DNA of 23,196 bases from Saccoglossus kowalevskii (Eukaryota; Hemichordata; Enteropneusta; Harrimaniidae). Every line of letters begins with the position of its first letter. The stretch's first letter is position 1. Location of the stretch: the NCBI RefSeq assembly GCF_000003605.2, contig NW_003120897.1:1-23196 (forward strand), read 5' to 3'. A program made the position numbers and the translations under genes. The notes beneath the pieces were generated by a model. That model saw nothing but the letters and a program-made list of their open reading frames with translations, was not told where the DNA came from and ran no database searches. Below, piece after piece: positions 1 through 23,097 of this stretch.

Positions 1-1880
1 GAAACTGAAATATCCATGACGACAAGCAAAATATGCAATATTTCCGGTAACCATGATTACTTACATTTTCCAAAATTCTTGCAAGTTAGCTACATTAACC
101 CAATGTTAATATTCGATTTTGTCTATGATGATTTGTTTATAGTTATAACAAAATAACAAACATTCTATTTACCTACACAGTATATTTTATCATGTTTTTG
201 TTTGGTTTTACTTTTGTTTTCTTTTGGAATGAAAAATATTTTGTGATGTGGTAGGTATATTTCACACATTGCGGGTTTTACACTATGAACTGCGTCTGGG
301 TTGTCGCAATCATGGTTATTGTGTTTCAGACGCAATGAAAACATTATAAGCTGCATGTGTTGTTGAAATCTTGTTATTTTCAATTGCACACTACTCTATG
401 TCATAGAATTAATCCTAAGCTTTGCAAAGCGCCATGATTAGTCTGAATGTTTTTTTTATATAGTGAATGTTTTTTGACATTAAATAGAACTATAAAAATA
501 CAAAATATATTGTGTTTCTGGTAACCCGATCTTGCCTATTTTTTTTTTCAATTCGGCCCTGTATCTTTTTATGACGAAACTGGACAATGGACATTTGTAC
601 GCAGACCTGTCATTTCTACTTGAAAATATTCACGTTTGAACCAACATGTCAACCTGTACATGCAAGATGTGGTGTATTATTCAAAAATATTCTCATATAA
701 TAGTATGGGCAAAGTGGCAGCGCGGAATAATGAATTGTGAATAATTAGATATTTTTTGTAAAATAAATGGTTATTATTATAAAATAAAATAAATCCTTCC
801 ATCCTTCTCTTACTTCTGTTTCCAATGTTACCAGAAACACACTATTTTATTTGGCCTCATCTCCAAATCAAATATAAATAAATGTCATACAAGTTTCAAA
901 TTATTTGATCTCTATTGAATGGCAAAAAAACAAATCATTATTAGTTTCGAAAATCTGCTCAGACTAGCGAGTATATGACCCAGATCAAAATGCTAGGTTT
1001 CGGGAGATTGTAGTGCGCCCTCAATCAATTGAATCGTTTTGTAAGCACGAGGGCTTCCTCTGTGGCACATGGTTACACTACAGACGGCTGGCAGTGATGT
1101 ATGACTGAGGCTGATGGATTGTTTCGCGATTTGATTTGATGTGTGTTATTTCTCATGGATGCGAGTCTAATTTCCACGAAGTTTTATTGTCGTAATGTGG
1201 GCCCCAGCTTGGACGTTTTTTTTTTTCTTCTTTTGTATAAGTGGTCCAGCCACTAGTGTTTCTTTTATGAGATTTTACGGCATTTCGCTTTCGTACATCC
1301 AAAATGAAGGAATTTTAAGATAAAAGAATTACCAAGATTAGTATCAACAAATCTTGAAATTGCTTTACTGGAAATGTTTTACTATTTACGATTCTACGAT
1401 AAATGTAACAAGCTACGCATTCCAGTTTGTTGCCACTTTTTTAATATTTATTCAAAACTATTACATTGGTTTTAGAAATGTTTATTTACAAATTCTATTT
1501 TAAAATAATTATAGTATGAGACTGGTTATTACACGTTGTGGTCTAATTGGTTAGCTGCTAAATAGGACTAGGTCATCGGGGAAATAGTAAATGGGTCGTT
1601 TATATTCACTGGGCAGTGAATACGTTATGTTTTGTTTATATAAACAGCGATTTTCATGAAGGCATGTACTTTATCATAATCAATGTGTAAACTCAATTTA
1701 CAGTTTTAGGCGATAATAAGTGACAAGTTTGTTTACACATCCATCATCCAGTAAGAATCCAGTATAAGTAATATACTTCTGACGTCATCAAAGATGGGGG
1801 AATGAATCTTGACTTTACAGTGAATCCCATTTGTAACATTTTGACAGATTTATACTACCTATAACATTAAAGCACAGCAC
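1..1880. other. non-coding flank, no gene recognised
   Basis: AT-rich sequence with stops in all frames and several A/T runs. No domain, RNA gene, inverted-repeat element or copy of the window's other repeats was seen. It lies downstream of the Mx gene and may include the distal end of its 3' UTR. Confidence 0.6.
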
Positions 1881-1886
1881 TTTATT
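1881..1886 (-). promoter_or_regulatory. candidate polyadenylation signal of the Mx-like gene (AATAAA)
   Basis: This is the first canonical AATAAA on the minus strand downstream of the stop at 2308, about 420 nt away. The implied 3' UTR would include the MITE at 2068-2210. No cDNA support is available. Confidence 0.4.
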
Positions 1887-2067
1887 TACACTTATACAAA
1901 TATACTCTGAAAAAATAAAAACATTTTCGTATTTTTACAAATTCTAACCAAACCTTTCTAGAGTATTCAAGCCAATTCTCGCCCGGAGACTAAAAACTAT
2001 CACGTGATGCCCTAATGACATCACGATTCCTCTTTGAAAATATTTGAGCACATTACTAGTCACTGTA

Positions 2068-2210
2068 TTAAAGCGGGGGAATCGTCACCTGCGCATGCGT
2101 CAGATGGCCATAGCGTGTCGTTGTTTACAAACGAGCGTCTACCCATGAGCCTTTGCGTTTTAGCGTGTGTTGTTATCGTCGCCTGGGACTCAAGTCCCGC
2201 GCGTGCGATG
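2068..2210 (+). repeat. MITE family A, copy 1 (right end lost)
   Basis: It starts TTAAAGCGGGGGAATCGTCA and continues through GCGCATGCGTCAGATGGCCA. The sequence is clearly homologous, over about 140 bp, to 9609-9780 and 20591-20727, all in the same orientation. The left terminus is intact, but the right terminus diverges after CCCGCGCGT. It lies about 100 nt past the Mx stop codon, so it is probably transcribed in the 3' UTR as antisense of the element. Confidence 0.85.
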
Positions 2211-2307
2211 TCAAGATGTCAATCAACTGAGTTACATTCAGGACAAAATTCAGAATCCTTCGAACTCAACAAAAAGCTAACAAACCACATGTGTACAAAC
2301 ACCGCTG

Positions 2308-5300
2308 TTATATTGTACTAAACATTGCAAGTTCCCTGCTGGCTCTGTCTAAACGTTCTCTTTTGGCTTCCAGGGAAAGTCGTCTTTCTTCCACGGCTGC
2401 ATCTTCTCGCAGGAACTCGTCAATGTTTCTCTCGATCAGGAACTTTGCCATTTCCACCTTGATATCATTTCCGAGTTCTTGCAACAAATAGAATGTTATC
2501 ATCAAAGGTATATCGTCCATCAGTCGAGTCGTAGCAACCTGCCAATATATAGAAAACATTACTCGTTGGGAGAGATTTATGTACATAAGTTTACTGCCCT
2601 ATACCATTAACTTATTTTCACAACAATTGCCGAAAATGCAGAATGGTGTACCATGTAACTGTTAACAAATAATAATTAAATTAAATACAGTACCGGTTCT
2701 GTAACATCTTGCGTATGACGTAACATTCGCTTCTCAGTATCTTTATAGATCCTATCACGTGTATGGATCATATCCTCCATTTTAAATTTGTCTTCGATTG
2801 CTTTTTTCGAGTTTGCAACAGCTTTAGTTTGCAAATCGCAGAACTTACTCTAATGTAAAACGGGATAAACAATAACATTTAATTACTAGTTTGGCGATTT
2901 ACATATCATATCCGAAATTTTGAAAACAATGAGTTGACCAATGTATATTTTCCGGAAGGATAAAGGACACTGGCCACCCGACAGCCAATTTAAAATCAGA
3001 TTAATTCGTTGTCGTACCATCTATGAACAAATTCATGAAGCATGCCCGGCCAGTAAAAGTTCAGCTTTGGACTCTGATGGAATAAAGGAGATGTTCAATC
3101 GTTCGACATAGAGTTACGAACATTGGGTTACACGAATGACCACGCCCATATTTTAGAAACCATATATAGTAACTCAAACTTTAATTAACAGTTAACCGAA
3201 TTTTGCGTTACGGGCAACATATATTTTTTGTTTTGTTCAACGTTGTATATTTCGCGTAATTCGGAGTTAAAGTTCAAGTTACTAAATGTGGACGTTTATC
3301 AGCATCACAGAATAAAGACATTCTCACTTGATTCACAATTGTTTTTTTATCAAAATACAATGTACCCGAACAAAACCTCAAAGATTCACTAGTACTTCAT
3401 GTAAATTCCAGTTGCTATTACGACCGACCATAATCAATTAATGGTGTAACCAAGATTAAACATATATAGAGCCTGATTTTTATGTTAGATTGTAATATTG
3501 GATGATTACCATCACTGTTGCTTGTAGTCTTGGAAACTGACTGTATGTATCACGGACTAGCCTTTGTCCAATCCTTTCCACTTCCATGTTAACAGCCTGT
3601 AGCAACCTCTCTGCGGGGGGTATAAATTGTTTGAGAATTTGACGAATTAGATTCTCGCAAATTATTCTGTCCTTGACAAACGGTGGTAGCTCCAACCCTC
3701 TCTGTTCAACAAGCTCCTCTTTGATCTCTGGTAAGTGCTCATCGCCTGTTTGGAAGAGAAAACGCAAATAAGCTATCACCTATTTATTAAATTGTCTTAT
3801 AATACGATGGCGGCCATCCATTTCTTGTCAGTCAATTGACATACACCCCTTGTATTTGTTATGTATAAAGCCGAGTTTCGTATTGTCCTGGATTCTTTTT
3901 TATACATATAACACCAGATTTGAGCTAATGTGATAGTCACATTCATATGGTAGCAATAATATCATCCATATTATTGAGTAAGGCTTATTTGAAATCAAAC
4001 TAAAAATGGATATCTTAAATATATTGTCTGCTTATCTAGAGGAAGCAGTTCTTATTTGTTCTGGGCAATAGATTACTTTATCATTGCCTCGATACATGAG
4101 CAATGTTGGTATAACATGTCGTGGACTACACTGCATTTGTATTATTACAAATAACCTGCATGTATTATTAAGTATTACACATCTTCTAGAAAATCTATAT
4201 AGAATCCATCATCGGACATAAACATTGTTTATGAAATTCTTTTGCAGAATGGATGATGTGTTTGAGTTATAGATGAAATAGAGTCTTGGTGTGCTTACTG
4301 TACCAACCACGACACAACACAACACAATGCGCAGTGTTAATACACTTATTAAGCAGATAAATCATTCTACGACTCAACCCTAATTATTTTATGGAGAACA
4401 ATCAAAACAATTACTGAGAATATTTGCATACTACTTGCTTATAAATGTATTTATTCGGGATACCTAATTGTGAGTGCTGAAACATGATAGTGTCACGTGA
4501 CGCCTCCTCCCCTCCACTTGAAGTGAGCTCCGGAGAACCACTGCATGGAACATCAGGTGCATTCGTAGCCTTATAAGACCGTTCCTCACACAATGTTTCA
4601 TTCTCTTCATCACTGTCGTCCATAGGGTCTTCTGCTTCTGGATGACTCAAAACCTCTTCTCTGGGAGAATAATAGTCTGAACCATCTGAACTCGTGTCAT
4701 CAGTCAATGATTCAAAAGATAAGTTTTCCATACTGCCATGTGAAGGTGTGGATATCGAATGGCCAGCTGATTGTTTGCCGGATGAACTTTCATGGAAACC
4801 TGATCCATGCTTATCAACATGCTGACGATGTGGAGTAGTTTTTCTTCGTCGAAAAAATGGAAACTTAGACTTAGATTTATGCGGTGGAAGGAATTCTTGA
4901 TAACCACCAATATCATCGGCGTTTACAGATTCCCATTCATCAACGTCGGGAGATAGAAGTGGAGACCGTTTCGACGATGAATGCATTCCTGGCTTTGCTA
5001 TCAAAGACAATTCACTTTTATTTGATGCAGCACCATCACCGTGCTTTGAACTAACATGAGATTCAGTACCAAGTGTTTTGCACTTTCCAGTAGAGTTGTC
5101 TGTCTTTGACGTGGGCTGGTCCATATGCGATTCTTTGGTAGGAAATGTTCTAGCCTCTCTCATTTTCTTTTCTGTGCTGCCATTATGAGATTTGTTTTGG
5201 GACACCATTCTTCTATCGAGTATCGGCTTCCTCACAGTGACTGTCTGAATGGCTGCCGAAAAATTGAGAAGAGACATGTCACTGTGGGGAAGCTCGAGTA

Positions 5301-7150
5301 CAAGTAGTCAGGCTGTTCCACTAATTAGATCTCAAACAAATAAGTTCGGCCCAACTAAGTTTGTAGTACATGATGTTGATTTCCCTGGGGCCAATCCAAA
5401 GTTCAAATAGATGCTAGAATTCGGCCTCCCATACATAAGTATCCTTGCCTTGCGCAATGTTATCTGCGCCCACTACATATAGACGTTAGCTTGTTTATTC
5501 AAATAGATTACTGGCTCCGCTGTGTTGCAACTACGCAGTTACAAAATAACCATGTGTCATTGTTTAATTGGTTTCCTGTGGCTCATATCGTAGTATAAAA
5601 TGGTACACTAAATCAATGAGCTAAATAATTTTTCATGTTTTTTAGTGTGTTGGTGAGCATGTTAAACAGAATGGGGTTCTTTTATTGCGTTTATTAAGAA
5701 AACACATGTCTTAATTATGTTCAAGGGCAATACAATGTTGTAAGAATAAAAGAAAGAAAAGGGAAAATAATGGCTAAGACCAGCTAGGCTTTTCCTTTTC
5801 CAGATGATGCTTACAATTCTTTGCGAACAATGTGTGTCATTCGAGGTTACGAGTCAACTTACCCACGTCATCAAAATTGAGTAAGTATCACGTTATGCAT
5901 AATAATAAATGCAACTATTACGCAAGATATCTATACAGTAAATAAAGGCACAATAATTTTGGTACACACATATTTAATACATCATTGTATTACTTACATG
6001 GTTGTAGTGATTCCAATTCATCGGCAAATGTGTCATACAGCTTCATCACTATAGTTTGTAATCGCATTGATCTATCATAAGTGGCGTTCTTGTAAACACC
6101 TTCGGCGGCGTTCTTGAAGTCATCTGGAAATCTGTCCAGCAGCTGTGGAAATGAATTGGTTGTGATAAAAGTATGAACCGTCAAAGTACTAGCCATAACG
6201 CATAGCATGTTTGAAACTATTATACATACCAGGACTGTGTAGATATTCTTATATCAAATGCCAATGCGCTATTCCGCAGTGAACCCGGTCCGTTTGAAAA
6301 GAAATTACAGGTGGGCCTTAAACAATTTAATTAAGTCTATGGCGAAATCAGTTTTGGCCTTCTCACTGAGTCTGTAGCACACAGTGACAATCGCCTAGGG
6401 CAAGGTTAAGTTATCATTAGTGTTAGGTTTAGACTCGTGTGTTCCAGATTATGAGTTTGACAGAACATGTTTAGAGAGCCTGTTTTACGAAAATTGTACT
6501 TGAAGCAAACATTCACAGATTACTTTCGTACTGAAGATCAAAAGCCTTAGGAATATGAAACAAAGCGAGTGTTTTGATCAAATACTAGTAGTCCACCGAT
6601 GTTCAAAGAATTGTCAAAAAACAATCAAATAATACCCTGTTGATATAATATAAAAAGATGTCAGCTGACGGGGTTACATAAACGGTAAATTACACACTTA
6701 CTCTGACTAGTAAATCAATTCGTTGTACGTCATTCATTGGCACTTCTTCTCCCAGCGTTGTTAGTTCCTGCTTAGTGTCCTCAAGTTTATCTTTAATAGC
6801 ATGCTGTATCTGGGGAACAGATTTCTGTAAAGAATGTACGCGAATTACAATGACGCCATTGCCATATTTCATTGCATTTATATGGCGGCAGTCGTCGTGC
6901 CGCGTCCTGTTCGATATGGGACTCATAGCGACGTATACAACGCGTGTAAAATACATGTTTATTTACATGAAATTCGAACACGCGCTGCACGACTACCACC
7001 GCGCTTTAATATGTGAAATGAAGTCCAAGCTTCTATGAAAAATGAAAACTGAGTTTGATGGGATTACAATGACTCACCAGTATTTGTTCCACAAGCTCTG
7101 TTGTTAGGCGATGTGCAAGTAATCGGGAACCAGCTTGACCAGAGAGAACA
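2308..7150 (-). CDS. Mx: stalk and GTPase effector domain (GED) of the Mx-like protein, coding exons 6-12
   Basis: Exons 6-8 and 10-12 encode the helical stalk and the C-terminal GED, which mediate oligomerisation and GTPase activation in Mx proteins (family knowledge). Exon 6 has [12 protein letters not shown], the end of the first bundle-signalling helix. Exon 7 runs from [18 protein letters not shown], like the Mx segment after the G domain. Exon 10 contains QRGLELPPF, equivalent to the L2 motif before ELPxF in vertebrate Mx. Exon 11 matches the helix before loop L4. Exon 12 begins after a 155-bp intron and has [15 protein letters not shown], the usual GED helix, ending in REL plus six residues. 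The stretch where vertebrate Mx has the roughly 40-residue L4 loop is only about 25 residues from IYK to the GED helix, so L4 looks reduced or missing. Confidence 0.9.
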
Positions 7151-10100
7151 CTGTAAGAGTACAAGTTTCACTTTGTTACGTGCGTCGTTTGAAATATAAT
7201 ACGCCCCTCACTTACCCATGATACACTGCTATAGATGGATGGCTCCTGACCGGAAATGCGGATTGTGACAAAGTTTGATGAGGCAATATTTCAGAACAAT
7301 CACACCAAATTCGTCTTAACGAGGTTCGCAAAGATTTGACAAACTATTATTAATATTATTATTTCCTTTATACTATAATTATTACGGGTTCATGACAATC
7401 GGGAACGAAAACAAAACTGTTACTAGACAATATTTTGCGAAACGAAGTACGGAATGTCATGGAAAAATTATAAAATGTGCATTTAATCTTTGTTTTGGCA
7501 TTGTGATAAAAGTATATTACTTAAAATGTTACTCGGTGACATTACTGAAGCATTTATGTATAATAAAAATATACTGTTCAAATAAATGATATTTTTTTTA
7601 GTTTGCAATATGTTACATAATTATTTCCCCAACGTGTTGCCCATATACTCAGTAGTGCAGTATTTTAATTCAGTAAACACCAGTCAGTCTGAAGAGAAAT
7701 AAAAAAACACATTACCAACCTGTAGTGTTTATGTTCTCTGAAGAACCGTTCCTCTTCGTCCATGGCCTCCTCCAGTGACATGGCATCTTCCAAGTTCCGC
7801 TGACTTCGGCATTTCATTATTGTGTATCCTTTCTTCAAATTGATCACTTTATTTTCAGCTATTCGCACCACGACATTCTCCGATCCTTTGTCGACAAGAT
7901 CTGGTTTGGTCAGCACACCTGAAATAAAATGCAAGTCATGCATAATATAGACAATGGAAAACGTAAAACATTTCATGTTACTCTTATATAATTTGCAACC
8001 ATTTGCGTTCGCACCATGTTGTCAGCGGACCTTACCAAGGTCAGGCCAATGCGTTTACCCACGTAACACGGTACCCATATAAACCACGACATCTATGACC
8101 TGTGTTGCTTCAAATGTACCAAATAAATACAACTCAAACTCACGTCTCTCAAAAAGTTTACGTACCAAGTGTTCTTGATCCGGTGGGATCCACTTCCTGT
8201 GCCATCTTGATTGCTTCTGTTGTTGCTATATCAACGTTACAAGGTATGACACACAAAACAATGGCATCGTCTTTGCTTATATACTTTTTAATCAAGTCTT
8301 TCGTCTGCGTTAACAAGAAATACAAACCTGTTACCCGTCTAAAATTAATCGTTTAGTTTTTTTAACTGTGTTTTGGTTTGGAGTCAGCCTGAATCACAAT
8401 TTGTTTTATCTCATGGATTAGTCTTATAGTGCCTGCAAGCATTGGAGTAAAGATGCAATTCCGTTCAATGGTATATACTAGTATACAGTAATATTATTTT
8501 AGGTTACCTAGGTTTCCGGACATATTTTCTATCAGTAATTTTTCAAAAGAAAAAAGTCAAAAATCGCTGGCAACTTGAAGGTTTTAGAAATTGAAATCGT
8601 TTTTTAAGGAGTTTCCCCCTATATTAAGATTTACCTATTTTAGCGAAGAGGTTGCCTAATCGTCAATCATGCGTATCATTTTCATGTGTGCGGGTAACGG
8701 GGCACATTGTGTGGCCAGACAACGTAACACTGAACCCCGGGGTACGTATCTGGTATGGGTAGAACTTACAAGTATTTAGCAAAATCCAAAAAAATGTCCA
8801 CTGATTTTCGAATAAAAATGTAACCTTTTTTTGATAAATGCGGATTTTCGGGAAAAAATTAAAAACCCCTATTTCACCCCTTTCTGCCCATTTGGTCAGT
8901 TTGGTTCAGGTAGAACTTTCACTAACTACTTTATTTTAAAGTATCCCCTTTTATGTTTTGTGGACATGCGAACATCGAACTTCCCCTTTCTCCGCAAATT
9001 CAGAAAGCACATGCGACTAGCCCCCCCCCCCCCGACTCGACCCGAGTCTGTGGCCAATACTGTTGTCACACTAATTGACACGGAGTCTGAAAAAGCAAAC
9101 CACAATATGAAAGAATGAGTTGACATTTATATCGAAGCTCCATCCACCTCTCATGAAAAGGTTCCGGATGAGTATTGTATTGGAACAGCGCCACCAAACA
9201 ACAGAATTCCTCACCTCATCTGCAATATTACGAGACTGTCCTTCTTGAGGGACCCTTGCAATACCAGGCAAGTCAATCAAAGTCAGGTTCGGTACGTGGG
9301 CTGACTGAATCTCAACTGTTATTGAAGTTTTACTGATGCCTTTCTGTGAATTCGTGATGTCTTGTTGTGCTGAAATATCAACAGGCGTTATTAATGTCAC
9401 ATCGGACAATACTGGAACGTACTGGAACGAAGACAGTAGACACAACTGTTTACTGGGCACCTAGAAACATAGCCCTGCTCTTGATCCGGGTAGAATTTCG
9501 GGAGAGAAAAAAAAACAACCATTTACCCAATCATTCCATTTCCCCCTATTGTTGAAGGAGAACAATGATACTTCATGTGCAAAAAATTTTACCCCTTCAA
9601 AAGGAGATTTTAAAGTGGGGGAGTCGTCACCTGCGCATGCGCCAGATGGCCATAGCGTGTCATTGTTTACAAACAAGCGTCTACCCATGAACCTTTGCGT
9701 TTTTAGCGTGTGTTGTTATCGTGTTAGCGTGTGGACTCGATTCCCGCGCGTACGTAGGTGACGACCCTCTCGCTATAAAACATATATAAAAGAAAATACA
9801 ACATGTATTTGGTTAATTTGTAAACTACTTTTACACTTTAAAACATGACTTCTCCCTTGAGCGACGGTTAATATCAGTCTTAGTACGAGTCCATCTAGTA
9901 GATGTGACTACGCCACAAACTTACATTTTATCAGAAGAAAAGAAACAGCTTGTTTGTCCTGCAATGTGCGTGTATCTGGTAACATGTGATTTTATATTAT
10001 TGTCTTTTTTGTAAATATATGTATAGCAGCCTAGAATTAATTGAATAGTCATCCATCTATCCATTCATAATAAATCCATTCATTGAATAAATAAATAAAT

Positions 10101-12015
10101 GAATAAATAAATGAATAAATAAATAACGTGCAGTTGTCATCTCACCTGTACGTATAGCAGCTCCAAGTTCATCCGGGCTATCAATGTACTTGTTTACTTG
10201 TTCCTTTGAGTAGTTTATGTACAGTATTTTGCCACACCATTCATCGTTATCCAGTGTTTTTAGTCTTAATTCTATGGGACATCGTGTCACAATTTCTACA
10301 AACAAATACACATGGGATTTTACGAGAGATTGATTTTGATGATGTATTTAAGGAGCCCTCTGATGTCAACTCCAAGTTAAAATGAGATAACACCAGGTTC
10401 ACATACAAGTCAAGTGTCACATTGTGCGTTGCGGTTGAATACAGCATGACGTCTATGCAAATAAACTATGAAGATTTCTTTCACATGATGACGTAACTTT
10501 TCTCGGAATCGCCGTACGGGAAATTCAGGAAATGAGTCAGACAACTTATCAGACCATCACATTAGACAATCAACCGGATCAGCATTGAAACTCGGGAAGG
10601 CAGATTAGGAAAGCGCAGAAAAAAATGTTGAAAGAAATATTTGACAGAGAAAATAACACACAATACTATTACAGTAAACAATCTAACACACATTTAAAAG
10701 CAGAAAGCTATATATTAATATCAACGTATAAAGAAACAGGTAAAGAAAAAGACTGCGCATAAGGGGTGGACCATTAGAGTAAAGTCTGGGGTGATGGGAG
10801 AAAAACTATGCAAACTATTTACTGGGCAAATTCCCTAAGAATAAGATTTTTTTTTTTTTTTTTTTTTTGTTCCATACAATAATTATTTTCAGGATTTGTC
10901 CTGTGCAATTTTGTTTGGAATTTCTAATGGTCCACCCCTAAAAAAATAATCTCCACACCTGATTTTCTACTTTAATGTACAAGTCCATGATATTACCCCC
11001 CCCCCCCAAGCATCTATGCTGTAAACCACCACCAAATAACACGTGGGGTATATCTTGACAAGACGTAGTGGCTGAGTAGCAAGAGTGAGAGACACGTGAT
11101 TGAAGATTCTACGAAAAACCTGAACAAAGACAAATCTACCTTTTCTAGGAATATATACTCGTTTGTTTAGGTGTTTTGTGTATTCCAGAGTAAATAGAGT
11201 TGACTTTATGTACAAAATCGCACGCACTATTGCCTCGAACTCTCATTACTTACACCATGGGCTTGTAAATGCCACGTTTGCATGATAAATAAATTACTAC
11301 CGTAGTACATGTATATGAAACAAAGACTTGTCCAGAGGGAGACGAGTACCCCCCCCCCCCTTCCGCCGCCACACATATACATGTACGTATAGTGACTATA
11401 CAAACATAGAAACCGAAAGTGTGACTGTCGGATACATTCCTTTTACGGCGGCAGTCGTCGTGCCGCGTCCTGTTTGATATTGGACTCATAGCGACGTATA
11501 CAACGCGTGTAAATACATTGTTTATTTACATGAAATTCGAACACGCGCTGCGCGACGACCAAAGCCCTTTAATAAAAATTGGCTGACTGGAGAAACAGAC
11601 ATTTCATAGAATCGCTAATGACCAAATGTACCTGTCAGTTAGTAGTTGAGGTGAACGTACAGACATCGAATGCATATTATAGCGGCAACCCCGCCCTCAT
11701 TTAGGGGGACCGTATTTTGTGAGACTTTTTATGTGGACTATTTATGAGCATAAATCGTAGAACAAATAAACGAGACATGCATTCTTTCTTATACTTGCCT
11801 AGTTACTTACCATTGCCTCTAGGAAGCTGAACCCCCGATATCGCTTCAAGTACGGAGCTTTTACCGACACTTTGGTCGCCGATGACAACCACGGCTGGAA
11901 GATCTACATCTTTATCCAAACCAATTCTTCTCAGCGAATCGACAAGATCGATGCAAGGACGTATGCGTTCTTGGTACGAAGCCGCCAGGGTCGGCACTTT
12001 CGAATCGGGAGCCAT
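2308..12015 (-). CDS. Mx: Mx-like dynamin-family GTPase, complete, 12 coding exons
   Basis: Large GTPase of the dynamin superfamily, closest in layout to interferon-induced Mx proteins: cytosolic, self-assembling through its stalk, antiviral in vertebrates (family knowledge; the role here is inferred). Coding exons on the minus strand, in order: 12015-11811, 10295-10146, 9369-9215, 8304-8166, 7918-7720, 7150-7078, 6824-6702, 6142-5998, 5252-4464, 3745-3510, 2849-2694, 2538-2308. All introns are GT-AG and every junction keeps phase, giving 866 residues and a TAA stop at 2310-2308. The ATG at 12015 lies in a good context (GAC ATG G) and the next 68 codons align with the Mx N-terminus up to LPRG. 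There is no PH or proline-rich domain, which separates it from classical dynamins. Exon 9 is an unusual 263-residue insert; the other 603 residues match a slightly short Mx. Exon borders were read by eye without transcript data. Confidence 0.93.
4464..5252 (-). CDS. Mx: large in-frame exon inserted in the stalk of the Mx-like protein (263 codons)
   Basis: Coding exon 9 encodes residues 397-659. The acceptor is a good pyrimidine tract ending in CGGCAG (AG at 5254-5253). The donor is TTAG|gtatcc (GT at 4463-4462). Its length of 789 nt is a multiple of 3 and both borders are phase 1, matching exon 8 (ends CCA T) and exon 10 (starts GC GAT). The protein is hydrophilic and rich in Ser, Lys, His and Asp/Glu, with no recognised domain, so it is probably disordered. 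It contains several SP sites, a basic-aromatic cluster at 522-534 ([13 protein letters not shown]), an acidic stretch at 602-620, and a DEWESV motif at 501-506. The frame is open throughout with no stop, which supports real coding sequence. An independent single-exon gene is less likely, because the only nearby ATG (5277) would lie inside the acceptor tract. Confidence 0.82.
6889..7010 (+). repeat. MITE family B, copy 1
   Basis: It lies in Mx intron 6 and makes up about half of that 253-bp intron, starting 65 bp from the exon 7 acceptor. It contains GGCGGCAGTCGTCGTGCCGC, then GACGTATACAACGCGTGTAA, then AAATTCGAACACGCGCTGC, and ends GCGCTTTAA. It is strongly similar to 11443-11572 and, inverted, to 19466-19597. 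The left TTAAAG terminus has decayed. Confidence 0.85.
7720..12015 (-). CDS. Mx: GTPase (G) domain of the Mx-like protein, coding exons 1-5
   Basis: These exons encode roughly residues 1-283. The P-loop G1 is GDQSVGKS at residues 46-53. The G2 threonine is T72, within EIVTR. G3 is DLPG at 151-154, in [13 protein letters not shown]4 is TKPD at 220-223, followed by LVDKG. The G5-like KCRS is at 252-255. The motif [13 protein letters not shown] in exon 4 is the usual dynamin or Mx strand and helix after G3. All nucleotide-binding residues I can check are present, so an active GTPase is expected. One oddity is the dynamin signature LPRG-[STN]-[GN]-[LIVM]-VTR: it reads LPRGNEIVTR here, with Glu69 at a Gly/Asn position. 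That codon is split across intron 1 (G|AA). Confidence 0.93.
9609..9780 (+). repeat. MITE family A, copy 2 (both terminal inverted repeats present)
   Basis: This is the most complete copy, in Mx intron 2. The left end (TTTTAAAGTGGGGGAGTCG and on) and the reverse complement of the right end (TTTTATAGCGAGAGGGTCG and on) match at 27 of 34 positions, with a perfect 10-bp core GTCGTCACCT. The element is about 170 bp with no coding capacity. The left border reads TTAA|AG and the right border GCT|ATAA, one change from TTAA. A TTAA target duplication with AG termini is typical of the Kolobok superfamily (inference). Confidence 0.85.
10085..10126. repeat. simple repeat (AAAT/AATG)n
   Basis: Alternating AAAT and AATG units in Mx intron 2, ending about 20 bp from the exon 2 donor at 10146-10145. 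Confidence 0.9.
10762..10939. repeat. MITE family C, copy 1, with perfect 17-bp inverted repeats
   Basis: It lies in Mx intron 1. AGGGGTGGACCATTAGA at 10762-10778 is exactly inverted at 10923-10939. The 178-bp interior is AT-rich, has a run of 22 T at 10847-10868 and no coding capacity. Comparison with the copy ending near 15605 suggests the true ends may lie slightly further out, because both copies continue past the CCCCT with a similar A/T-rich stretch and TAATCTC. Confidence 0.8.
11443..11572 (+). repeat. MITE family B, copy 2
   Basis: It lies in Mx intron 1. The left end is GGCGGCAGTCGTCGTGCCGC and the right end is GCGCGACGACCAAAGCCCTTTAA (last 23 bp). The reverse complement of the right end starts TTAAAGGGC and shares GTCGTCG with the left end, so these are imperfect terminal inverted repeats. 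The right border CCCT|TTAA fits a TTAA target site. Confidence 0.85.
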
Positions 12016-12018
12016 GTC

Positions 12019-12135
12019 TGCTTGCGTTACACAGTTTGAAGTGATATACGCATGGTTTGTGTCGGTTTCTTTTATTGAATGTGGTAGACGGGACTTTCCA
12101 GGTACATGTACACGTATTCATTGTATTTACATACC
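12019..12135 (-). other. possible 5' UTR intron of the Mx-like gene
   Basis: On the minus strand GAATCAG|gtatgt (GT near 12134) is a good donor, and GCAAGCAG just before ACATGG is a possible acceptor 4 nt upstream of the start codon. This would give a non-coding first exon and an intron of about 115 bp. The pyrimidine tract is poor, so the alternative is an unspliced 5' UTR. Confidence 0.3.
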
Positions 12136-12173
12136 TGATTCAAACAAACTCATCGCTTGAGATTTAGCCCGCA

Positions 12174-12494
12174 CTAGGGGGTCACCAATTTTGCAAGGAA
12201 CATTGCCCGATTCATTCGTTAAAATATTTCGGGCAATATACGCCATGAAGGGTACAATTTGCCGGACAAACAAATGGATAAACGTTATTCAAAATGCGTC
12301 CGTTCTAAGACATTTGTCCTATTTATCGAATATTATTTGTACAGGAAAATGTGTACAAATATTTAACACTCAAAGTTGCGTAAATATAAGTGAAAATGAG
12401 AAAACAATACATTCTTAAGTTAATAATTAGGTCGGTTATATTCCTCATCCCTACCGTCGCGTCCGAGACACGGACATACCCGGTGACCCCCTAG
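12174..12494. repeat. inverted-repeat element just upstream of the Mx-like gene
   Basis: CTAGGGGGTCACC at 12174-12186 is exactly inverted at 12482-12494, bracketing 321 bp without coding potential. Its inner edge lies 160 bp upstream of the Mx ATG, so it probably overlaps the promoter. A clear target-site duplication was not found; TTAGCC occurs near both ends but at different offsets. It could be a MITE or a chance inverted repeat. Confidence 0.5.
12388..12405 (+). promoter_or_regulatory. weak IRF/ISRE-like motif upstream of the Mx-like gene
   Basis: AAGTGAAAATGAGAAAAC contains the IRF core AANNGAAA (AAGTGAAA) followed by a second GAGAAA, a near match to the interferon-response consensus. 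It lies about 370 bp upstream of the Mx ATG inside the inverted-repeat element. Such short motifs are common in AT-rich DNA, so this is only suggestive. Confidence 0.2.
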
Positions 12495-14074
12495 CTTAGC
12501 CTTGATTAATACGTTTTTCCAATTTAATGTTAGAACGTTTGGATTTTAGCAAATGTTACATTAATTTATTTGACATGGGCGTCATTATTCTATGAATAAA
12601 TATACAATGTTTCTGGCTAGATATCTGTATTTATTTTTTATTTCACTCAAACTGACAGGTAGCTAGGGGAGCTTACATATTAAGATAACCTCGTGATTGG
12701 AAATACCCTTACTGGTGATCAACTGACTCTAACCGCGCAAGCTGCAGAACATATACTTGTAGTTTCGATTTATTCAAACTCGGGTAAATAGTGATAATTT
12801 ATGCAATCTCAGTCAGTCAGACCGATATATACTCGATCTTGTATATATTAATGTTACCTTAAACTATTTTTTCAACAAGTAGCACCATCATTTGGATCCA
12901 ACGTTTATTTCGAATATTCACAAATCAAGATTTATTTTTCATAACGGGAAATATATTTCATGGGAACAATTTTAATAACTAACATTGATATTGCGTCAAG
13001 TTGCACATATACTTCTACAACGGTAACAGTGGGTAGTTTAATCACGTCTCCTGGTGACAATGGCAATTGTTTATCTATTATTAAAATTGAATTGCTCAAC
13101 ATGCTGACAATAGGACAGGGGGAGCCAGGGTACCTAATATGTCTGAAGTTCAGATCAACAATTATTTTGTGCATTTCAATGATCAAACCGTTTTGGGGTA
13201 CTTTTGAGTATTAAGTAAACCAATGTTCATTTGTTAACAATTTTATTCTAGGCATTATTTGTGATATTTAAGGGTATCAGCTTATAAAGAGATGACAGAT
13301 TGTGGTAAACTTGATGATTTGAAAATATTAGAACCATATCATGAACGTTAAGGAGTATATATGTGTTATACATTGAGGTTTCCCTACTGAACTTTTGAGA
13401 ACACTTCGATGCCAGAGGAGATAATAGACAATACCTTATGTTGGAAGGAGGGGGCAAATATTTACGCCACGAAACATGAATTCATGGTCACAATTTTGTA
13501 TATAAATGTTTGTGTTAATTAGTTACTCCAGTGATTCAATCCAGAATGCCTACCACTGTGCGCTGACGCCGGGGATTTCCCACAGTGCTTATAGTAATCA
13601 TACATACATGCTTCAGATTGAACCATTAGTCTATAAATATGCCTATCACCCGTCGTCATGACAACTTACGTACTGACCTCAGCTGCTAACGTAATAATCG
13701 TAACCTACCTGTGGTGGCGCTTGATAGATTAACTGAACAAATGACAACTTTAGAAACTGCAGAAAGTTTAACAGTGCGGGAGCGCGTTAATGTGCACATT
13801 ATAATTGCTAAGTATATCTTGCTAGGGTGCTCAGATCCGATGCCATTAATATCAATTTGTGAGAAAAGTAAGGTAAAGTTGTGATAATCAACAACCCCGC
13901 AAAGACCTAGCGCCCTCCGCGGTGCTCAAAACCCAACACAGTGAGGTGAGATGTAATGCCGTACGGCCGGCGAGGGCGCCACTCACGCCTACATGTCAGT
14001 CTAGCAAAGACACTGATAGACTGTTCAAGTTGTATTACCATAATTGAATTGTTTCTAAAGCGTTAAAAAGAAAC

Positions 14075-16536: not shown

Positions 16537-19500
16537 ATGATGCGATTGGCAGCGGTGTTAATACTTGTACTTGTGGCGGTAGAGGCGAGACCCAACAGAA
16601 CCCCAAAGGAATATAAGAAGTCGGGCGAATGGAAAGCACTTCTGAGACCAGTGGTAAGTTCGAAAATATATTGGCAACGCCCTGGGCAAGCAGAGTGGAC
16701 AGATCGATAACGTAGCTAACGTCGTATTTGATACTCATTCAAAATTACACTAACGGTACGGTATGTACGTACTCAGTTGCATTAAATTGCATACACTGTA
16801 ATGGGTGTATTCATAATATCCGGATTCAGTCGTTCAAGAATCGGTGGCTTTACATTCTATAGCTACATTTCTGAATCGTGGCTTATCTATGGGGGTAGAC
16901 GGAGTACTCATGTTATGACGTCTGTACTATGAGTTATGATTGGGTTGTCCTGGTCTTGAAAGCAGGTCGGCAGCGAGTAAATAAACACAGTTTCCTTTGA
17001 CAGTTTGGATAAACGCCACTTTATCAAAACGTAACGAGTGATTATAATCACTGACTTAGGGACCACTACAAGTTGAACAACTGAATAATGTGCACCCTGC
17101 AGGGGCGGATCTAGGATTCTGGAATAGGGGGGGGGGGCGATACGTTGGCCTAAGGCCAAGTTCGCGAGCGCCGATGGCGCGAAGCCCTGTTGGTTGTTAA
17201 AAGTAGTGGGGGCCGCGGCCCCCTCAGCCCCCATCTAAATCCGCCAATGCCCCGGGACACATACGTCAACTTTGACGTCGAAAGAATGTGTTGTGTAATT
17301 TTAGACAAAGAATCGCTCTCCGGTTGCAAGGAGCTGGTTATATATTATACGACTACATCAACAAATCAGGCGCGTTCACAGTTTGTGCACGACGAGGCGG
17401 ACAATCACCACATGTTTCATATCAAACATATGTATGAGTCCTGTGATAGATAAATTATAGAAGTATTATTTTAGTGATTATTATTGGATTGACACCAAAA
17501 TAAAATGTCGAATTTGATGATGTACTTGTATTAAATTTGCACGTATTACAATCTGTTCATAGTTGCCACCCAAATTGGCACCAAAGAACTACATTATTGC
17601 CAGGGCTTTAATTAAAATAAAATATTTACTCACCAAGTCTTACAAAAATGAATATAACACGGCCACATACGAACGAGGATCAACAGAAATGGTGGATCTG
17701 GTGACCTACTCGGTCAAACACATCACGTGACATTGACATTTACGAGCAATGAAAACAAAAACCTCTGATATTTACCAAGAGTGTTAATGTATTCAACCGC
17801 ATTCCTTTGAACAGTACGCTTTCTACAGTATTGTAAACGGCGCCGGGGATGGTCTTTCCCTTTGAGGCCGATGAATTAGTTTGTTGTCAAGGATCTCAAA
17901 GGAAATGAAGTCTTTTGTGTAATTTAAGTGCACTTTCGTGTCAGTGCAACCACTGTGGCATGTATGTTGACCAATATAAGGCCACCCGGTTTTGCATCAC
18001 TGGTATTTTTTTGTTGGGAACCATAGTCTAACGAAGTTCGTAACGGGGGATTATAATTCGGTATTCGTCCGTCCGTCTGGAGTCATGTTTCAAAACAGTG
18101 TGGACCAACTCTTTTCATTCTTTGCATGTGCATAATACTTTATCTGGGACATGTGCACATGCAGTGGTTAACTGATTCAATCAAAGATGACTGACTGACA
18201 GCCATTTTGTTTTTTGAAAATGTGGTATCTTATGCATATTTTTTGTTCAAATTTGGTAAATACATTATACATGTTAGGATACATGTATATGACGATTCGT
18301 TTTGCAATCGGATCAAAGATGGCGGACTGACTGCCATCTTGCTTTTTGACCATACTACTATATCTTCAAAGCTTGTGGACCATTTTTATTCACATTTGAC
18401 ACATACACCATGCATATAGGAGTACATGTTCATGTCAGTTTGTTCCATGATCAGATCTAAGATGGCCGACTGGCATCCATCTTCTGTTTTTTTGAAAATG
18501 TAGTATCTTGGACAGGATTTGTTGGTTTTCTTTCAAATTTGATACAAACATTTACACATGTTGCGATACATGACCATCATGACTAACTGGCAAAATGTAT
18601 TGTTGACATGTTTTTTTCTTCAAATTATACATATTAGGATACATGTCCATGACAATTTGTTTCACAATCGGGTCAAAGATGGTTGACTGCCTGCAATCTT
18701 GCTTTTTGACCATACTTCTATATCTCTGCACATGAGCCTGGACAAAAAAAATCAGTTTGGATACAAATATGCATGAATAGCATCCCTGTTTAATTTCTGA
18801 CTATATATTTCATTTAATACATCTAATTACTGTTGATACTAGACCAGCCAATTATTCACTCTCAGTTACTAACTATGCTTTTGATGCATATTTCTTTATT
18901 TTTGACATGAATAACATTTCCCCTAATCCCAACGGGGACTATGTCATTAACAATGACTTGTTGAGTTATAACTCCGATCCAATCATTAAAACTATTATAT
19001 AACATGTACACACAATAAGTTCTGTTTTAATCAATCATTATTCAACAACGTGGACATTTCGCACATTCTGATTGGTTAAAACATACATTGTCAGTATGAA
19101 ATCAACACTATAGAATATATTTTATAATTCTGGTTTTAGCAAAATATTTCACAGTGATGATTTTATGTGACCTACTACAATGCATTAATATTGTACGTAT
19201 ATAAAAAGAATATTATCTGATCCAACTCTTCCCCTTTTTTCATCTTTATAGTCGGAGAGTGATTCTCTAGTCAAAAAAGAATGGGAAGATATTCAGCCCA
19301 AGAAGACATACGACAAGGTTTATGGTGAGTTACCTGCGTGCGTTAGGTGTACTATGTTTGCACGTGCACGATTAGGATCAGTGCGCATGCGTTGCGCATT
19401 TCACTGCATGTTTCCACAGAACAGCATACTCAAGAAGACAAGCTAGCTCTGTTTATTACTTATATTGCCGTTTAGTGGTCGTCGCGCAACGCGTGTTCGA

Positions 19501-20262: not shown

Positions 20263-23097
20263 GTATTCAAACGAAAGATTAAGTTAAACACGATAACAGA
20301 GGGCGGTCGTTATATGCTTGAGATGACGTCACGTGGATATTCCGATACTTTACGTGTCTGTAAAATTTGGAAGAATCGGCGATTCAGTAACTTGTTGTTT
20401 TATTGTTTGTTTCGAATAAGCAAGGAGCAGAAGTTTTGGGGGATTGTACTAATATGTCGTCGTCTTCAATGTTGACCGCGATGAGTTATATCTATTGCGT
20501 ATTTATTTAGGAATAACAAATATTAAAGGACGGCAGTTGTCTGCCCTACGACCGCCGACCTTTAATGGAATGTAGTACAGTTGTAATTCATTAAAGCGGG
20601 GGAGTCGTCACCTACGCATGCGTCAGATGGCCATACCGTGTCATTGTTTACAAACGAGCGTCTACCCATGAGCCTTTGCGTTTTGTATGTGTGATGTTAT
20701 CGTCGCTCGGGACTCAATTCCTTTAAGTATATATCCATTGCATTAATAATTACTAATTATTTGTTAGATGAGATATCTTACACCAATATACAATTAGTTT
20801 TATCAGGGGACTCGGACGCTCGCCACTAATACATGCACTATGTTTTAATTACAGAAGAAATCCAACCTGGCTTTTACAATGACTACGTCCAGGAAGTAAG
20901 TTATTTCAATATTCGATACTTATTACATCATCATCAGTGTTAATTTAAAATCGAACGTAGGTAGAAGTGGTGTCACCGGCAACCAAATTAAATAAAACGA
21001 CGGTTGGCTAACTACATCGGACAAGAAATAGTCTCTCTGCGTCAGTTCTCGGACAGTCGCAGTTTTCCCTCACCGATAAAATTGACAAAAATATTTTTCT
21101 TAAAGAAGTACCCGGATTGTTGTTGTCTGGCAAGTACAATGCCTAACGCGTTAACATTTGAAAACAAATACAGTTGCTAGCAAAGAAATGTTCATTTATG
21201 CGGTATTTATTTCAGCCTAAGAAACTGGTCAAAGAAACTCTAATTCAGTCCGATGAACTGCCAGCAGGAAATGCGGTCGATCTCCCTGAACTGGAACAAA
21301 CTGCATATGACGTGGCAGATGGTGAGTGGTTAACGTCACAGTGTGCACGTGACCTGTAACAGTAGCTCGTGCATGTCTTTGTTTATTCAGATTTATGAGG
21401 GAGTTTTTAGTTCAATTCGCGAAGAAACATCTAATTAAATTGAGACTGTATTGCGCTGCTATAACATAATGTTGATTAGCCCAGGGAAAGTAATATAATG
21501 AAGAAGGTATTTATCTGTAATTGCTCACAGGGAAGAAACTCATTCAAATCCCCCTTTGAACTAATTAACATAAGTAGCAGCAATACATCTTCCAAATGTA
21601 TTTAATTTCCCCCCAGAGCAAGCTTGGGTGCCAAGTGAGTGCACTGATTCGGAATTGTCTGAACTTCCAAGACGGTTGATGGAATGGTTTAGATTGTTAC
21701 AAGCAGAAGAAGAGGACCTTTATAAGAAACATCCACACAAGGAGATGCCCGTACCTGGTAAATATAGCAAATAACTTGCATAGGAGACACGGCATTGTCA
21801 TGCATTGAATATTCATTATTCGAATTAAAGTCGAATAACGGATCGCAGTTTTAGAATCAATTTTTGAAATTCCTGTCCGACTAAGTTGTCTCTCATAACT
21901 GGTACCAGCCCTCATAGGGCAAATCAACGAACATGCGTCACTATCTTGAATGTCTCTTGACTTTAACAGATGTTGAGGTGCTCCCTAAATGCAAAGAGTC
22001 AACTGCCTGGATGTTTAACACACTTGACGTTGACAGAGATCTTGTGCTGTCTTCCAAGGAATACTACGACATGTACAACGACGAGTACGAAGTATGCATG
22101 AGAACCTTCCTAGATGAATGCGATCAAAACCGGGACTGGAAAATCACTGGAGACGAATGGTGTAACTGTTTCCATGCTGAAGAAGGTAGGAAATATATTC
22201 TTTTTGTTGCTAGGCGTTTTTCATACCCATATGTTTGATACTGAAACTAATGTTTTTGGGAGACAGATTGTGTGACTGACAAAAACACCACGTGAGTCTC
22301 GCAGTAGTCTATAATTGTAAACGCATTGGTTGTGAAGCTCTTTGACTGAAAACCATATGGAAATGTAGAAAAAATAGAACACATTGCATACCTAATATTA
22401 AACACTTGCAAATATTTAAAACGTATATCACGTTAAAATAAATACTTGTAGTATTTGGATAATTACTGATATAATTCCATACTACAGATTTCACTATGTA
22501 TCGTGTAATAATAATAATTTGTATGTTACTTGTTGACAGCTGTGAGACCACCTTGCTTCCAGGCAATGGACGACGTACCTACCATGATGGTATTAGGGGA
22601 GATCAGGCCTTTAGCAGGTATGTTACATCGAATAGAATTTTCTACGCTTTACAATGGTTTCGGAAAATTTAATCTGTGTTTGGTTTGGTTGTGGTATTTT
22701 TTCTGTTTTTATTTAAATAAAAAAACTTCGAGCACATCGTACCGGCGACTGTATACACAATTTGCAATACGTCGGATTGAAGCAAATAAACTTCTTACTT
22801 GGCCAGGTCAGTGTGGTCACACAATATGGTAGAATGGACAAGTTAGTGCATATATGAGAAGGAAAAAAGTGATTTAAATAAGGAATCATGGTGATATGTA
22901 AATTGCTTGATGTGACAATTTCATCACGAATGACATTTACTCACATCTTTAATTAATAGGTGCTTTCGTTCCGACTTGTGACGAAAACGGTTACTATTCA
23001 ACGGCGCAATGTCACGGCGGAACAGGATTTTGCTGGTGTGTTGATCAATACGGAGTTGAATACGAAAACACACGTGTGAGAGGAGAGCCCCCTTGTG
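16537..23097 (+). CDS. SPOCK: testican (SPOCK-type) proteoglycan core protein, 3' end beyond the window
   Basis: Secreted, Ca-binding extracellular-matrix proteoglycan of the SPARC superfamily; vertebrate testicans modulate proteases and cell-matrix signalling (family knowledge). Exons: 16537-16653, 19252-19324, 19796-19892, 20072-20262, 20855-20895, 21216-21321, 21617-21757, 21970-22185, 22540-22617, 22960-23097, all GT-AG and in phase, giving 399 codons so far. The domain order is signal peptide, Cys-rich DPC segment, Kazal, SPARC-EC with two EF-hands, thyroglobulin type-1. This matches testican and excludes SPARC (no thyroglobulin domain) and SMOC (different order). I chose ATG 16537 because it has an ACC context and begins a clean signal peptide; there is no upstream in-frame ATG in the same open stretch. 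The last exon ends in a donor (GT at 23098-23099), so at least one more exon, expected to carry the acidic glycosaminoglycan-bearing tail, lies outside. Confidence 0.94.
17100..17249. repeat. MITE with CAGGGGCGGATC-type termini (hAT-like)
   Basis: The left end CAGGGGCGGATCTAGG and the reverse complement of the right end, CATTGGCGGATTTAGATGGG, share GGCGGATYTAG. Short non-autonomous elements beginning CAGnGGCGGATC are commonly attributed to hAT transposons (general knowledge). It contains a G-run, the palindrome GGCCTAAGGCC, and GCGAGCGCC/GGCGCGAAG arms. No exact 8-bp target duplication was seen. Confidence 0.65.
18177..18740 (+). repeat. tandem satellite of about 110-145 bp units, with an internal palindrome
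   Basis: Units are recognised by AAGATGGC-n-GACTG-n-GCCATCTT, itself an inverted repeat, at about 18184, 18316, 18459 and 18675, with one degenerate unit near 18570. Each is followed by TTTTTGA and, further on, GGATACATGT-like and CAATCGGATC-like stretches. Two unit types alternate: TTTTTTGAAAATGTnGTATCTT and GCTTTTTGACCATACTnCTATATC. Confidence 0.8.
19466..19597 (-). repeat. MITE family B, copy 3 (inverted)
   Basis: It lies in testican intron 2, in the opposite orientation to the copies in the Mx gene. Read on the minus strand it starts TTAAAGGGCGGCAGACGTCG and follows the family through CATGAAATTCGAACACGCG. This copy keeps the full TTAAAGGGCGGCAG terminus that the other copies have lost. 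Confidence 0.85.
19598..19712 (-). repeat. second, diverged partial copy of MITE family B, in tandem with copy 3
   Basis: Directly after copy 3 the sequence repeats the same order of motifs with many changes: GCGTGTTCGGATTTCTTGTA, then a TTTACATGCG block, then GTTGTATACGTCGCATTAGA, then a degenerate GACGCAATGCGACGACG. The pair is a tandem arrangement of one intact and one old copy, both inverted. Confidence 0.7.
20522..20566. repeat. 45-bp imperfect palindrome, probably an internally deleted family B MITE
   Basis: The left arm ATTAAAGGACGGCAGTTGTC and the reverse complement of the right arm (ATTAAAGGTCGGCGGTCGTA) match at most positions. The left arm resembles the family B terminus TTAAAGGGCGGCAGTCGTC. 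TTAA is present at both borders, so this could be two terminal repeats with almost no interior. Confidence 0.6.
20591..20727 (+). repeat. MITE family A, copy 3 (right end diverged)
   Basis: It lies in testican intron 4. It starts TTAAAGCGGGGGAGTCGTCA and follows copies 1 and 2 through GCGTCTACCCATGAGCCTTTGCG and the GGGACTCAATTCC region. It then ends in CTTTAA instead of the long right inverted repeat. It lies 24 bp past a 45-bp palindrome related to family B. Confidence 0.85.
21617..22185 (+). CDS. SPOCK: testican exons 7-8: SPARC extracellular Ca-binding (EC) domain with two EF-hands
   Basis: The EC domain starts with CTDSELSELPRRLMEWF, matching the SPARC or testican first helix. EF-hand 1 loop is residues 275-286 (DVDRDLVLSSKE), with Asp at 1, 3 and 5 and Glu at 12, but Leu instead of Gly at 6. 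EF-hand 2 loop is residues 307-318 (DQNRDWKITGDE), with Asp, Asn, Asp and terminal Glu. The loops are linked by the C298-C306 pair typical of this fold, followed by WCNCF. Both loops keep all acidic ligands, so calcium binding is expected. Confidence 0.92.
22540..23097 (+). CDS. SPOCK: testican exons 9-10: thyroglobulin type-1 domain
   Basis: Residues 333-399 hold C333, C360, C371, C378, C380 and C399 with the QCH and CWCVD motifs. This is the standard six-cysteine thyroglobulin type-1 repeat, which in other proteins can inhibit cysteine proteases. The domain is split by a phase 1 intron, as are most introns of this gene, which fits exon-module assembly. Confidence 0.92.

Follow-up and report, generated by a model that had tools for sequence, protein, structure and literature searches.

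The gene described here raises the question of what an exon of 263 codons is doing within the stalk of an Mx-type GTPase, at a point where human MxA has no counterpart: whether it is coding sequence at all, whether it is always spliced in and, if translated, what it might contribute. The window, by which we mean the whole stretch of DNA analysed, comprises 23,196 nucleotides of Saccoglossus kowalevskii (contig NW_003120897.1, positions 1 to 23,196, assembly GCF_000003605.2).

The window carries a complete Mx gene

The gene lies on the minus strand, runs from 12015 to 2308 and is complete, with 12 exons and introns that all follow the GT-AG rule. Exon 1 (11811..12015) supplies the start codon, the N-terminus and the P-loop GDQSVGKSS, and is conserved in a second Mx gene on contig C4618. 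Exons 2 (10146..10295), 3 (9215..9369, containing DLPG), 4 (8166..8304), 5 (7720..7918, containing TKPD), 6 (7078..7150) and 7 (6702..6824) were placed by the gene model and by comparison with the C4618 gene. Exon 8 (5998..6142), which encodes part of the stalk and ends in phase 1 after ESLQP, and exon 10 (3510..3745), which opens with the L2-equivalent, were placed by the gene model and alignment with MxA. Between them lies exon 9 (4464..5252), the 263-codon insert, which is predicted to be disordered and has the same phase, 1, at both ends and conserved flanks. Exon 11 (2694..2849) is shortened: its last residues are RHTQDVTEP, and the donor that follows them, CCG|GTACTG, is weak. Exon 12 (2308..2538), placed by the gene model and Pfam, encodes the rest of alpha4, the GED and the stop codon. 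Both frames are open: inclusion of exon 9 gives a protein of 866 amino acids and skipping one of 603.

The translation contains a GTPase domain with P-loop, DLPG and TKPD motifs. Pfam recognised Dynamin_N (2.2e-45), Dynamin_M (1.4e-51) and GED (2.8e-08), and the ten families that it reported with E values up to 1 included no PH family. When the skipped form was compared with the PDB, the best matches were MxA and MxB, with human MxA (3szr) matching over nearly the full length at E 4.7e-115; full-length MxA and MxB chains scored from 2.4e-109 to 9.9e-107 in the PDB search, and the best non-Mx chain 7e-56. Since the match to MxA extends along nearly the whole skipped form and lies far above that of the best non-Mx chain, we assign the product, by match scores and domains, to the Mx-type GTPases, in keeping with the sequence-only reading, which had called it Mx-like. 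No relatives of the Mx protein were found in IMG/VR. Contig C469 gave a 41% match, which we attributed to a different gene of the dynamin family.

Exon 9 is a constrained coding exon

Exon 9, read from 5252 to 4464 on the minus strand, comprises 789 nt between an AG acceptor and a GT donor; its coordinates, length, phases and exact fit between two stalk exons are all as first proposed. It lies within the longest stop-free run of the window (4411-5307, 298 codons; the next longest has 142), whereas the longest run in 60 windows simulated with matching dinucleotide content averaged 132 codons and never exceeded 196. When codon log-odds were derived from the other exons, the correct frame of exon 9 scored 0.066, more than any of the other five frames and more than each of 2000 random intron stretches (null maximum -0.201); as most other frames of exon 9 also exceed the intron null, this measure says little about frame.

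The decisive evidence comes from the one further Mx gene that the genome search found, on contig C4618, which has an exon 9 at the same site with identical splice signals. That exon is 537 nt long, again in phase 1-1, and the two versions differ by five indels (3, 153, 96, 3 and 3 nt), every one a multiple of three, compared with 17 of 75 indels in the introns (10 of 11 counted, as intron 1 was too long); the hypergeometric chance of this contrast, worked out by hand on gaps as placed by MAFFT, is about 0.001. Omega for exon 9 was 0.375 (Nei-Gojobori; bootstrap range 0.22-0.67, with no sample at or above 1) and rose to 1.17 and 1.27 when either wrong frame was read; for the rest of the Mx protein it was 0.221. 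The insert is thus under constraint, but less so than the enzyme, and the two long indels, of 153 and 96 nt and both in frame, imply that much of its length is dispensable. Given the same boundaries in a second Mx gene, the exclusively in-frame indels and an omega of 0.375, exon 9 is a genuine, constrained coding exon of an Mx gene, and both Mx genes found in the S. kowalevskii genome have the stalk insert in common.

This largely refutes the notion of exon 9 as an open frame that arose by chance, a remnant of a transposon or a piece of another gene within an intron. Such an origin would sit well with an insert that has no known domain and a composition unlike that of the rest of the protein, but it is at odds with a long open frame under in-frame constraint, with a phase that fits at both ends in both copies, and with the presence of the exon at only two loci, both Mx, in the genome search; we give it hardly any credence. 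A chance open reading frame or a repeat is ruled out by the second copy and the genome searches. The insert had no homologue in Pfam or the PDB at E up to 1 and no relatives in IMG/VR or elsewhere in the same genome, and phage records yielded a single chance match (E 8).

We also considered whether the C4618 copy might be an allele. The homology found between it and the window is limited to 1222-12519, short repeats apart, and the neighbouring SPARC-like exon (21850-22300) has no other match in the genome; for these reasons a second gene is favoured, although part of the C4618 contig reads N.

The insert separates two elements of interface 3

In the alignment of the skipped form with MxA, the insert comes directly after the position equivalent to E424 and some 15 residues ahead of Y440 (residue numbers for MxA were assigned by hand from the 3zys row, where LPGF begins at residue 445). 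The exon therefore does fall inside the stalk, directly before the L2-equivalent QRGLELPPF, and the statement that vertebrate Mx proteins have no insert here is borne out for MxA, which has none at 424/425. The interface-3 residues of MX1 include R408 and YRGR440-443, and mutants in them form dimers rather than tetramers (PMC4702540, Table 1 and text). As the site lies between R408 and YRGR440-443, the insert splits the stretch between two elements of interface 3. In the same paper, the MX2 interface-3 mutants YRGK487-490AAAA and G439D keep full anti-HIV-1 activity (PMC4702540), so altering interface 3 need not alter antiviral function.

Splice signals of exon 9

The exon 9 donor had initially been described as good, which it is not. 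Scored with general consensus weights, TAG|GTATCC reaches only 2.8 bits, the lowest of the 11 donors in each gene (the others have 3.5-12.9), and it is unchanged between the two copies. The 100-nt intron flanks of exon 9 rank first and second of 22 in identity (0.93 on the donor side, 0.92 on the acceptor side), compared with 0.36 to 0.90 for the remaining 20; two of these, belonging to the short intron 6, extend into exon sequence in C4618. Over 50 nt the corresponding values are 0.96 and 1.00, equalled by the donor side of exon 6 (1.00) and the acceptor side of exon 4 (0.96). A weak but conserved splice site and conserved flanks are the usual marks of regulated splicing. The length of exon 9, a multiple of three, and its equal phase at both ends would allow it to be skipped cleanly. 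In view of this symmetry, of a donor weaker than any other in the gene and of 100-nt flanks conserved above all the rest, the splice signature, drawn from two copies in one genome, suggests that exon 9 is an alternative (cassette) exon.

The same donor can be read in another way. Beyond it, in both copies, 16 codons remain open after the split codon before a TAA (4411-4413), and the conserved stretch that they occupy (4411..4463, minus strand) is a possible alternative 3' end. Were exon 9 a terminal exon read through its weak donor to this stop, the product would comprise the GTPase domain, part of the BSE, the start of the stalk and a disordered tail, without L2, L4 or the GED, and could be a dominant-negative or assembly-dead form. 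The open frame to a common stop, the identity of the post-donor stretch (0.96 over 50 nt, 0.93 over 100 nt), the weakness of the donor and an AATAAA that both copies have 42 nt before intron 9 ends (+676 of 718 nt in the window, +1287 of 1329 in C4618) would all suit such an isoform. Yet in both copies the phase of the GT donor is exactly the one that exon 10 requires, exon 10 and those after it have open frames under constraint, the shared AATAAA lies more than 600 nt beyond the stop, and the nearer hexamers (+9 in the window, +114 in C4618) are not common to the two genes. We regard a terminal exon as unlikely, though worth bearing in mind, and retain the cassette reading in what follows.

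The insert is predicted to be a disordered arm

In the charge-hydropathy plot the insert scored -0.143 and the rest of the protein +0.094, and charge-hydropathy together with composition called the insert disordered in both copies. AlphaFold2 returned a mean pLDDT of 49.4 and a pTM of 0.11 for the insert, with no helix of four or more residues, from an alignment of two rows, for which low confidence is to be expected even of some ordered proteins. The flexible module envisaged in the sequence-only reading is thus upheld by prediction, and we describe the insert as a predicted intrinsically disordered arm.

The arm is not uniform in its conservation. The stretches best kept between the two copies include the first 19 residues and IAKPGM. 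A basic patch, RRRK (residues 531-534, 4840..4851, minus strand), within FFRRRK, is conserved in the C4618 copy, and DEWESV (residues 501-506, 4924..4941, minus strand), DEWESL in C4618, matches the published xLIR pattern (PMC5119064). Among 20,000 shuffles of the insert a W-type xLIR arose in 1.2% and any xLIR in 13.9%. As each copy has in addition a second xLIR match of its own (LSFESL in the window, EEYETL in C4618) and 18 further patterns were also tried on the insert, the WES[V/L] LIR-like motif, with its putative binding of Atg8, offers no more than a lead. Both readings, LIR and RRRK, are tentative, being based on degenerate motifs.

Could the arm instead be a constitutive disordered spacer without any regulated role, tolerated, fast-changing and kept because it is harmless? 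Its omega of 0.375 against 0.221 for the rest of the protein, the length differences of 51 and 32 codons between the copies and the lack of a homologue elsewhere in the genome are what such a spacer would show. Against it stand an omega clearly below 1 (0.22-0.67), the conserved blocks within the insert and the unusually conserved 100-nt intron flanks, and we consider it somewhat less plausible even than the terminal exon.

The window copy lacks loop L4

Comparison of the copies placed a 336-bp deletion in the window at the junction 2719..2720 (minus strand), relative to C4618:211038-211373. It took with it loop L4, the 12 residues that follow and the strong exon-11 donor, AAA|GTAAGT. The C4618 version of exon 11 has 43 more codons. 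The extra part consists of a Ser-, Pro- and Asp-rich stretch resembling L4, followed by NKILRALQVYLK, whose 12 residues are aligned with MxA EEIFQHLMAYHQ, immediately ahead of the alpha4 residues common to all. Loop L4, between alpha3 and alpha4, is therefore present in the C4618 copy and absent from the window copy and, since MxA has both L4 and the part that follows, the absence represents a loss. Because L4 and the strong donor went together, exon 11 of the window now ends at a poor donor: the best remaining, CCG|GTACTG, scores 3.5 bits and, unless it is used, the frame meets a stop a few codons on. An assembly error may lie behind the deletion.

This qualifies the original contrast between the insert and an L4 further along as the virus-recognising part. 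The contrast is inapplicable to the window copy, where L4 is missing; the C4618 copy keeps the loop. The loss of L4 in one copy of the pair does not remove the window gene from the Mx family by descent. MX1 without L4 forms dimers and is inactive against influenza virus, MX2 without L4 has moderately lower activity, keeping about 80% inhibition (PMC4702540), and specificity comes largely from L4 in MX1 and from the N-terminal domain in MX2 (PMC10986937).

The deletion also raises the prospect that the window copy is a decaying gene, in which the insert would be functionally irrelevant. The removal of L4, the following residues and the strong donor, with a stop close by unless the weak donor is used, speaks for decay. 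Every other exon, however, is open, omega outside the insert is 0.221, and of the 11 differences that MxA polarises over 544 positions only 2 fall in the window copy and 9 in C4618 (15 more were uninformative), so that the window copy is not the faster evolving of the two. Decay is therefore doubtful in our view, if the least improbable of the alternatives considered here.

Other features of the window and genome

Positions 18027-18963 of the window hold a repeat, up to about 0.9 kb long, that is dispersed across the genome: at least 83 matches are known, one of them involving sequence outside 18027-18963, and most have about 70-85% identity. A shorter family of about 140-170 bp occurs in the window at 2066-2207, 9607-9778 and 20573-20723, in intron 5 of the C4618 Mx gene and once further along C4618; it looks like a small non-autonomous element. 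On the plus strand, the open frame at 21918-22238 encodes a calcium-binding domain of the SPARC type (Pfam SPARC_Ca_bdg, 4e-17), for which a search for a second match in the genome returned none. Elsewhere in the assembly, contig C4830 is mitochondrial: in COX1, COX2 and ND1, TGA is read as Trp and ATA as Met, AGG is absent from all three, AAA stands at Lys positions and, of two AGA codons, one coincides with a conserved Ser, all judged by eye against vertebrate sequence. On this contig COX1 has the opposite orientation to COX2 and ND1, an inversion that is not among the lancelet (Asymmetron) rearrangements with which we compared it (PMC2034537).

A model for the arm

With moderate confidence, we propose that exon 9 is a regulated cassette encoding a disordered arm that tunes assembly of the stalk and carries short docking motifs. 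For this role we infer the disorder, the optional inclusion, the steric control of interface 3 and the recruitment through motifs. Skipping of exon 9 would give a compact, ordinary Mx of 603 amino acids and inclusion the 866-residue form, in which the disordered arm would leave the stalk at about MxA 424/425, between R408 and YRGR440-443. By analogy with the disordered regions of Drp1, the included arm would sterically restrain assembly of the stalk through interface 3. It would also present docking motifs, namely the acidic-flanked, LIR-like WES[V/L], the basic patch FFRRRK and SP/TP sites, which might bind partners or cargo; partner binding or phosphorylation would then release assembly. In the window copy, which is without L4, the arm might be the main remaining flexible contact site.

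A bolder version holds that the spliced arm took over target recognition and hand-off, gates interface 3 and connects through its LIR to autophagy, and that the window copy discarded L4. If the arm does carry an Atg8-docking LIR, captured particles would go to autophagy. We think this version improbable, and prefer the regulated cassette with an assembly-tuning arm.

The variable domain and the A-insert of Drp1 (DNM1L) are alternatively spliced. The proposed arm resembles them as a disordered region in a dynamin-family protein, one that in Drp1 restrains assembly or activity: the disordered variable domain first restrains and then directs self-assembly, by steric means (PMC6051998). Unlike the insert, the Drp1 variable domain takes the place of the dynamin PH domain (PMC6051998), not a site before L2. 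The PDB search, the one sequence comparison that bears on the two, gave no match between them. The window protein is like human MxA and MxB in the full-length homology of its skipped form, in its GTPase-stalk-GED layout and in its L2-equivalent loop, and unlike MxA in having the insert at 424/425 and no L4.

Langley et al. 2025 list Mx orthologues from lancelet, acorn worm, flatworm, abalone, Owenia and Lamellibrachia, and conclude that Mx predates interferon and has undergone gene duplication and loss (PMC11789081). Their trees were built on the GTPase domain, and 'alternate splicing' occurs once, where only the longest isoform was kept. The main text of that paper contains neither 'disordered', 'loop L4' nor 'splice' and uses 'insertion' of a giant virus; we found no mention of a stalk insert there (PMC11789081). 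In the literature searched, which held few subscription papers, we found no description of an insert in the Mx stalk.

The arm would represent a third site for a flexible module in Mx proteins, placed beside the interface that controls assembly and apparently under the control of splicing. The S. kowalevskii pair offers a natural comparison between a gene with L4 and a short arm (C4618) and one with a long arm and no L4 (window). Together, the arm and the sister copy that has lost L4 would allow the coupling of assembly and recognition to be studied in a non-vertebrate Mx.
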